Assembly (NCBI RefSeq): GCF_009690625.1
Contig: NZ_CP033878.1
Location: 310,001-374,000, forward strand
Direction: 5' to 3'
From: Halorhabdus sp. CBA1104
GTDB lineage: Archaea > Halobacteriota > Halobacteria > Halobacteriales > Haloarculaceae
Length of the DNA stretch: 64,000 nt
Shown here: in pieces, positions 13,644 to 16,041 of the stretch
How the letters are laid out: every line of letters begins with the position of its first letter
Position numbering within the stretch: the stretch's first letter is position 1
The notes under the pieces: generated by a model
The model's database searches: none
Told to the model about the DNA's origin: nothing
What the model saw: the letters and a program-made list of their open reading frames with translations, nothing else
Translations under genes and position numbers: made by a program

Positions 13644-14849
13644 TCAGTCTGTCCGGATGACGTCTAGGCCGTGGTTCTGCTCGACGGCATCTCGGCCGCC
13701 GTCAGTTTCCCCGAAGCTTCGGTCGGTCTGACTGCTGGCGTCGGTGCCGACGTTGCTACTGGCATCGAAAGACGTGTCCTCGACGTCGACGTCCTCGATT
13801 GCTTGCCGGGACTTGTTGGCCTGCTTTTGGGTCGTCGGACCCAAGACCTGGGCCGACTGGACACCGGTCATGATCGCCATGACGCGGACTTTGCCCTTGT
13901 ACTCTTCTTCGATCCGGGCTCCCCAGATGACGTTAGCGTTGGCCTCCAGACGATCGGTGATGTTGCTTGCGATGCCTTCGGCCTCGTCGAGCGTCAGGTC
14001 GGGTCCACCCGTGATGTGGACCAGGCCGCCGCTGGCCCCACGGTAGTCGACATCGAGCAGTGGGTGGTTCATGGCGTCGCTGACCACTTCCTGGGTCTTG
14101 TTCTTGTCCTGGGTCTCGCCGACGAGCATCACCGCGACGCCGCCCTGGTTCATGATCGCGGACATGTCCGCGTAGTCCAGGTTGATCAGCGACGGTTGGG
14201 TGATCGTCTCGGAGATCCCCTTGACCGTCTCGGCGATGATCTGATCCATCACCGAGAAGGCCTTGCCGATCGGGAGGTTCGGGACGTAATCCAGCAGTCG
14301 ATTGTTGTCGAGGACGATGATCGAGTCGGCCTCATTGCGGAGGTTCTCCAGACCCTCCTCGGCTTTGACCGTCCGCGCACGCTCGACGTTGAACGGCGTC
14401 GAGACCATGCCGACGACGATCGCACCCTGCTCCTTGGCGATCTTCGAGACGACGGGCGCGGCGCCCGTGCCGGTCCCGCCGCCCATGCCGGCCGTGACGA
14501 ACACGAGGTCGGCGTCGCCCAGCACTTCCTTGATCGTGCCCTGGGCCATCTCGGTGGCGCGTTCGCCCATCGAGGGGTCGCCGCCCGCCCCGAGCCCGTT
14601 GGTCAGGGACTTGCCGACGAGGATCTTCGTGTCGGCTTCGATCATCTTGAGGTGCTGTTTGTCGGTGTTCAGCGCGATCGTATCGGCGCCCTCGACGCCG
14701 ATGTTGTACAGCCGGTTGACGGTGTTGTTACCGGCACCGCCACAGCCGATGATCACGATGCGCGGGTCGCCGAACTCGTCACCGTCGGCATCGACGTCCC
14801 GGCTCTCCTGTTCTTCGTGTTCGAGGGCCGAGTTGACAATATCCTGCAT
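13644..14849 (-). CDS. ftsZ2: Cell division protein FtsZ (CdrS-linked FtsZ2 type)
   Basis: A 401-aa tubulin-superfamily GTPase. The nucleotide-binding N-terminal domain carries [17 protein letters not shown] and the tubulin signature [14 protein letters not shown] (about residues 121-134). The T7 catalytic loop is [18 protein letters not shown]. The C-terminal domain ends near residue 345 with [11 protein letters not shown], followed by a disordered Asp/Ser/Gln tail. The N-terminus [14 protein letters not shown] and immediate linkage to a cdrS gene (3-nt gap) match the archaeal FtsZ2 locus, where the protein drives constriction. The paralogue call rests on context. Confidence 0.93.
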
Positions 14850-14852
14850 CGT

Positions 14853-15041
14853 CTACACCTTCGCCCATGTGCGCCGCTTGCGTTTTTCGGATGGGCGCTC
14901 TTTGCCAGTCTCTTGCTCGGCCAGCATATCTCGAACGGCCGCCCGGATCGCCTCGCTCCGGTTCGGGTATTCCCCCGTTTCGACCATTCGTTCGACCTCC
15001 TCGATCTGCTGTTTCGGAATCCGTAGTGTCACACGCTCCAT
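14853..15041 (-). CDS. cdrS: Ribbon-helix-helix regulator CdrS
   Basis: A 62-aa RHH protein. The antiparallel strand is [12 protein letters not shown], and the helices lie in [28 protein letters not shown], with a basic tail [10 protein letters not shown]. In Halobacterium and Haloferax the short RHH protein CdrS is co-transcribed with ftsZ2 and controls cell division genes. The same order with a 3-nt gap is seen here. Upstream lies the GTAAGAC repeat cluster, its likely target or that of CdrL. Confidence 0.92.
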
Positions 15042-15060: not shown

Positions 15061-15217
15061 GTAAGACGGACGCAGCGGGCCGCCCGCTCGTCTTACACAC
15101 GATAACCGCCAGACAGCGGTCGGTGGCATCCGGTACGCCACTGTGTAAGACAAGTCCGTCTTACGCATTACCGTACCACAGAGTGGGGGAACATAAAGGT
15201 TTTGGCGGATGTAAGAC
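15061..15217. promoter_or_regulatory. GTAAGAC/GTCTTAC operator cluster upstream of cdrS-ftsZ
   Basis: Five copies of one heptamer occur in 157 bp: GTAAGAC at 15061, 15145 and 15211, GTCTTAC at 15090 and 15158. Copies 15145/15158 form a 20-bp palindrome GTAAGACaagtccGTCTTAC. Copies 15061/15090 enclose a second GC-rich palindrome (AGCGGGC-c-GCCCGCT, 15074-15088). A minus-strand TATA candidate (CTTTATGTT, 15191-15199) would place the transcription start near the 20-bp palindrome. A sixth copy (15817-15823) sits just before cdrL. The probable ligands are the RHH proteins CdrL and/or CdrS. Confidence 0.7.
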
Positions 15218-15224
15218 GCCAAGG

Positions 15225-15263
15225 CGTAAACACCTAAAAAAGCGGCCCAGAGGTGTGTTTACG
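15225..15263 (-). terminator. Inverted repeat with T-run after cdrL
   Basis: CGTAAACACCT (15225-15235) pairs with AGGTGTGTTTACG (15251-15263) with a 2-nt bulge. On the minus strand the loop contains TTTTTT (15241-15236). It lies directly downstream of the cdrL stop and could end a monocistronic cdrL transcript before the cdrS promoter. Confidence 0.45.
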
Positions 15264-15269
15264 TGGCGT

Positions 15270-15809
15270 TTATTGGTCTAGTACGTCAGCAGCTGGCGTT
15301 CGCCGCCCACAGCTCGGACAGAATGCCCAGTCAGAGCGGAGCTCGTCGCCACAGTCACAGAAGATGCGACGTGAAGCCTTCTCCCCGCAGTTCGGGCAGT
15401 AGACGTGATCGCCCGAGACTGTCTCGCCACATTGGGAACAGGTCCGATTACCGGGCTGCTCGTCCGGCTCGACTACGGACGGTTCCTCGGTTGCGCGTTC
15501 GGGGGCCGTACTTGGAGATGGCGAGGACGCGACGGCCTCCTCCAGTGAGATGTTCACGTTGACGTCTTGTGGCTCGGGCTGTGGCCGCAACCGGCGGTCA
15601 CGCCGCTCTTCGAGGACGGCATCGACGCGTTCCGCGATGAGTTCGTCGAGACTCTCCTCGGCGGTGGCCGAATCCGTCTGCGTAGGCTCGGTCGTCTCGC
15701 CGTCGAGGTAGGCTCGCAACGCCTCGCGCATGACCTCGCTCTTGGAGGCGTCGAACTCCTCCAGTCGGTCGACGAGGTCGTCGTCGGCGCGGAACGTGAT
15801 TTTACTCAT
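15270..15809 (-). CDS. cdrL: Ribbon-helix-helix/zinc-ribbon regulator CdrL
   Basis: A 179-aa protein. The N-terminal RHH domain (MSKITFRADDDLVDRLEEFD...SEVMREALRAYL, residues 1-40) is followed by a Glu/Pro-rich linker. A C-terminal double zinc ribbon follows, with CSQCGETVSGDHVYCPNCGE and CDCGDELRSDWAFCPSCG. This architecture and its position upstream of cdrS-ftsZ2 match the long partner CdrL described beside CdrS in Halobacterium. The ATG at 15809 is preferred over an upstream ATG. A GTCTTAC half-site at 15817-15823, 8 nt from the start, and a 14-bp palindrome CTGACGCACGTCAG (15861-15874) suggest autoregulation. Confidence 0.88.
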   Translation of the reverse strand: MSKITFRADDDLVDRLEEFDASKSEVMREALRAYLDGETTEPTQTDSATAEESLDELIAERVDAVLEERRDRRLRPQPEPQDVNVNISLEEAVASSPSPSTAPERATEEPSVVEPDEQPGNRTCSQCGETVSGDHVYCPNCGEKASRRIFCDCGDELRSDWAFCPSCGRRTPAADVLDQ

Positions 15810-15927
15810 ACAGCCTGTCTTACGGCTTGACAGCCAGCCTACTTCAATCTTCGTGACTGTCTGACGCACGTCAGCGGTTGTGTTGAGGACCGGCCGACGC
15901 CGGTCGGTTTTTCGCTCCGAATGATAA

Positions 15928-15964: not shown

Positions 15965-16038
15965 CCGCCCTTAGCTCAGACTGGTAGAGCAGTCGACTGT
16001 AGATCGACTTGCCCCCCGTTCAAATCGGGGAGGGCGGA
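15965..16038 (+). tRNA. tRNA-Tyr (GUA)
   Basis: A 74-nt tRNA without intron. The acceptor CCGCCCT (15965-15971) pairs with AGGGCGG (16031-16037), with discriminator A at 16038. The anticodon arm is GTCGA-CTGTAGA-TCGAC, giving anticodon GTA. The T arm is CCCCG-TTCAAAT-CGGGG. CCA is not encoded. Its 3' end is the left attachment site of the integrated element, which keeps the tRNA intact. Confidence 0.97.
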
Positions 16039-16041
16039 CTT
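16026..16041 (+). repeat. Left attachment repeat (attL) in the tRNA-Tyr 3' end
   Basis: CGGGGAGGGCGGACTT covers the 3' half of the T stem, the acceptor strand and three bases beyond the tRNA. An identical copy is at 22762-22777. Confidence 0.9.

Follow-up and report, generated by a model that had tools for sequence, protein, structure and literature searches.

Which DNA sequence controls the cell division operon cdrS-ftsZ2 of Halobacteria, and which protein reads it, are the questions raised by a locus where the heptad GTAAGAC recurs around the cdrS promoter. The window, that is, the whole stretch of 64,000 nucleotides analyzed here (bases 310001-374000 of a haloarchaeal genome assembled as one 2.63-Mb contig), contains the gene order cdrL, then cdrS-ftsZ2 (Table 1). 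The CdrL protein has a ribbon-helix-helix (RHH)-like N-terminus, the CdrL_M middle region, and a double zinc ribbon. On the other side of cdrL lies a tRNA-Tyr gene (15965-16039) followed by unrelated small genes, possibly an integrated element.

Table 1. Genes and candidate regulatory elements of the cdrL-cdrS-ftsZ2 locus (positions in the window).
Feature	Position	Strand	Remarks
ftsZ2	13644..14849	-	401 aa; follows cdrS in the controlled operon; Pfam Tubulin/FtsZ and FtsZ_C
cdrS	14853..15041	-	62 aa; RHH protein; first gene of the operon; Pfam RHH_1, E 7e-9
Heptad D	15061..15067	+	GTCTTAC on the gene strand, shortly 5' of the cdrS start
Heptad C	15090..15096	-	GTAAGAC on the gene strand
Pair B	15145..15164		inverted heptads B1 15158-15164 (-) and B2 15145-15151 (+); covers the predicted transcription start
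cdrS TATA box TTTATG	15192..15197	-	BRE-like sequence at about 15198-15205
Heptad A	15211..15217	+	immediately upstream of the BRE
cdrL	15270..15809	-	179 aa; ATG at 15809; profile A1
Sixth copy	15817..15823	-	GTAWGAC-type heptad, at -14 relative to cdrL
Putative CdrS-type pair GTCTGAC-N4-GTCAGCG	15859..15876		upstream of the cdrL BRE/TATA

The initial annotation had listed five copies of GTAAGAC/GTCTTAC within 157 bp, one pair of them forming a 20-bp palindrome near the cdrS promoter, and a sixth copy shortly before the cdrL start; exact matches were recovered at all these positions (15061-15217 for the five). The palindrome, whose 7-bp arms are separated by 6 bp, is the sole match in the genome to GTAAGACN(0-20)GTCTTAC in the pattern searches by which all genome-wide counts were made. 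The whole genome contains 58 copies of the heptad, fewer than of a reversed-word control (134). With the other 52 copies as the background, the probability of five copies in 157 bp is about 2e-15, and in the list of 58 no two copies outside the cdrS cluster are less than 200 bp apart. One figure had to be corrected, the chance expectation in the window given earlier as about eight: dinucleotide shuffles yield 3.7, compared with eight copies observed. The copies of GTAAGAC within cdrL, at zinc-ribbon codons, look like a coding coincidence.

The proposal had been made to depend on the presence of the motif upstream of cdrS in relatives, where it was found class-wide. The inverted pair, defined as GTAAGAC-N(3-7)-GTCTTAC, occurs in 374 of 391 genomes of Halobacteria, representing 83 of 86 genera, as a single copy in 372 genomes and twice in two (G295 and G400). 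The corresponding reversed-word pair occurs in about ten Halobacteria genomes, and outside the class the GTAAGAC pair is at the background level (3/242 genomes). In most genomes that lack an exact pair, heptads are nevertheless found at cdrS, but one arm is altered or the spacer is shorter; in three of the pair-less genomes (G082, G386, and G399) the cdrS search gave no match. The near-universal occurrence of a single inverted pair per genome thus marks the heptads as the control switch of cdrS-ftsZ2, and their role as the operator of this operon is strongly supported.

The cluster is also present at every family cdrS locus retrieved, and all 80 named cdrS loci, which were collected via the CdrS protein and thus independently of the motif, have at least three heptads, Halobacterium and Haloferax being among them. 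For instance, the Halobacterium salinarum locus (L182) contains four exact heptads and one with a single mismatch, and the Haloferax locus has all five. Among 136 nonredundant cdrS promoters, each with two to six heptads, D is present with at most one mismatch in 129, A in 110 (22 of them as GTATGAC, the main heptad variant), and C in 97; the spacer of the pair is 4 bp in 105 loci, 2 to 6 bp overall, and 6 bp in the window. In Haloferacaceae archaeon XH8, cdrS occurs at two loci, each close to a different end of the contig (L234 and L243), reflecting either a duplication or an assembly overlap.

When the promoters are aligned on B1, a TTTATA-like box begins 32 or 33 nt before it in 129 of 134 cases. 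This fixed distance places pair B over the likely transcription start, predicted at about the first base of the pair. Heptad A precedes B1 by 52 nt (about five helical turns) or by 62-65 nt (about six); C and D lie in the cdrS leader. One published observation counts against the operator model: the monocistronic cdrS mRNA of Haloferax volcanii, about 250 nt long, is shorter than expected for a transcript comprising the gene and a leader of some 125 nt. Alternatively, the inverted heptads could form RNA stems of a structured cdrS leader. Two mutually exclusive folds are predicted for 15061-15164, one with the stems B1-B2 and C-D, the other with B1-D and B2-C, and the operon has been suggested to be under post-transcriptional control (PMC8303175). 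However, heptad A precedes the TATA box and falls outside the transcript, solitary heptads are common, no compensatory changes were seen in the heptad pairs, and of the seven pairs whose arms differ, six have lost base pairing through the change. We consider a structured leader very improbable as the explanation of the heptads.

The favored candidate reader is CdrL. In Hbt. salinarum, the sole reproducible ChIP-seq peak of CdrL reported lies upstream of cdrS-ftsZ2, and CdrL is described as restricted to Halobacteria, in contrast to the wider distribution of CdrS (PMC7439475); the class-limited range of the pair agrees with this restriction. As regards the direction of control, second-site mutations accompanied the cdrL deletion that has been published. 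If CdrL alone, binding as homodimers, read the word, genomes lacking it would have to retain the word through recent loss of the gene. A profile search that included hidden copies elsewhere detected no CdrL in 12 cdrS-bearing genomes, and these belong to at least seven genera and retain the GTAAGAC pair without exception. In the genus g34, where both sampled species lack CdrL, the heptads are identical at 35 of 35 positions, compared with 139 of 193 surrounding positions; at the 28% divergence of the flanks, such identity has a probability of about 1e-5 (0.72^35). Three other CdrL-less species pairs agree, being too similar to weigh much. Retention of the pair in 12 genomes, together with its conservation between two CdrL-less species, argues against CdrL as the only reader. 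Thus the sequence comparison makes exclusive reading by CdrL unlikely, and CdrS or another protein probably reads GTAAGAC too.

A second, related word points to CdrS. In H. volcanii, ChIP of CdrS is reported to recover ftsZ1 (PMC8406309), and in 19 of 20 genomes the ftsZ1 promoter has a pair resembling GTCTGAC-N4-GTCAGAC, with at most three mismatches, 5' of the TATA box (loci L122-L140). A pair of the same GTCWGAC-N4-GTCWGAC type stands 5' of the cdrL TATA box, and exact GTCWGAC is found between -85 and -45 in 75 of 125 nonredundant cdrL promoters. The two words, GTAWGAC and GTCWGAC, differ by one base and are partitioned between the promoters: 627 GTAWGAC versus 31 GTCWGAC heptads at cdrS, and two versus 26 at ftsZ1. 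Since ftsZ1 is a CdrS ChIP site, we infer that CdrS reads GTCWGAC. The dacZ upstream regions contain no consistent GTCWGAC pair, which counts against this model. The initial annotation had suggested that one and the same motif provides both auto- and cross-regulation; this did not hold for cdrL, where the conserved element is the GTCWGAC pair (Table 1) and where the sixth copy, as exact GTAAGAC, is not conserved among 34 family promoters, 17 of which have at -14 a GTAWGAC heptad, mostly GTATGAC.

Could CdrS then read both words and autoregulate the operon, with CdrL acting via other contacts? CdrS is present wherever the operator occurs, its ribbon MERVTLRIP is identical in all 136 nonredundant loci, and the words are only one base apart. 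The cdrS leaders themselves contain 21 GTCWGAC heptads at about -50, in the interval from C to D, and by eye most of these belong to Natrialbaceae-type loci; 24 loci hold any GTCWGAC. On the other hand, the cdrS promoter is absent from the 18 sites given for H. volcanii CdrS in Table 1 of the ChIP report (PMC8406309), and the cdrS genes outside the class, known from the wider distribution reported for CdrS (PMC7439475), are not accompanied by the GTAAGAC word. Reading of both words by CdrS alone seems somewhat less likely still than exclusive reading by CdrL. A third class-wide protein would account at once for the CdrL-less genomes and for the CdrS ChIP result, and these genomes encode further RHH proteins; yet no candidate was found, and the site is limited to one operon located beside two RHH genes. 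We regard such a protein as improbable.

Most of the observations fit an operator shared by both proteins, read mainly by CdrL and also readable by CdrS, the CdrS ChIP result remaining unexplained. The invariant ribbon residues of the two proteins are similar (R3-T5-R7 in CdrS and K3-T5-R7 in CdrL). The earlier assignment of the motif to CdrL and/or CdrS stands insofar as a class-wide cdrS-ftsZ2 operator is strongly supported and CdrL binds this region in Hbt. salinarum; as to the reader, it is weakened by the CdrS ChIP sites and by the genomes that keep the motif without CdrL.

We thus consider it probable that the heptads form the cdrS-ftsZ2 operator, read mostly by CdrL and likely also by CdrS, and that CdrS reads GTCWGAC. 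Each RHH dimer would bind one heptad, and the start-site pair with its flanking heptads would allow dimers to occupy adjacent positions and regulate initiation, with repression or feedback as the likeliest mode. The reader in most Halobacteria would be CdrL, and the second reader most likely CdrS itself; with a second reader using the site, the operator would survive the loss of CdrL. By binding N4-spaced GTCWGAC pairs, CdrS would act on ftsZ1 and cdrL, and CdrL would act back on cdrS-ftsZ2. A more speculative variant, to which we give little weight, is that GTAAGAC is a hybrid heptad (a GTA half plus a GTC half) recognized either by a mixed CdrS-CdrL dimer or by CdrS in a second binding mode. 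A single base would then distinguish the feedback promoter of cdrS-ftsZ2 from the output promoters of ftsZ1 and cdrL, and a delayed feedback loop would set FtsZ2 levels.

These observations assign to the regulation of archaeal FtsZ2, for which a CdrL ChIP peak had been reported, a precise DNA target that is shared across the class. They also distinguish the sister words of the two division regulators and raise the puzzle of an operator that outlives CdrL. As both model species carry the operator, direct binding and mutation tests are feasible. A search of the running text of haloarchaeal papers found no relevant mention of GTAAGAC; RHH operators as such are known, and we found no description of this operator or of the one-base sister code.

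Among known systems, the operator of the RHH regulator NikR, GTATGA-N16-TCATAC (PMC7055735), has a half-site resembling the GTATGAC variant. Its spacing is 16, compared with 4 here (2 to 6 overall); the nickel-sensing domain of NikR is absent here, and CdrS matches NikR structures weakly. An RHH protein that regulates a division gene is also known from another archaeon, Saccharolobus, where aCcr1 controls cdvA (cited in PMC7617429), a likeness in the kind of regulator and of target gene. Closest is the CdrL-bound region of Hbt. salinarum (PMC7439475), reported as a peak and not as a sequence motif: the promoter is the same and the species carries the heptads, the correspondence being at the level of the promoter. 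An operator of CdrL alone should lie upstream of cdrS-ftsZ2, be unique in its genome, and occur only where CdrL does; the pair lies there and is unique in all but two of the 374 genomes, and it is also present in the CdrL-less ones. The CdrS ChIP motif of H. volcanii (PMC8406309) is reported as a symmetric site upstream of ftsZ1, where we find the GTCWGAC pairs, a likeness at the level of the promoter. The GTAAGAC pair shares this CdrS-type layout, two heptads spaced by 4 (6 in the window), in a word that is one base off.
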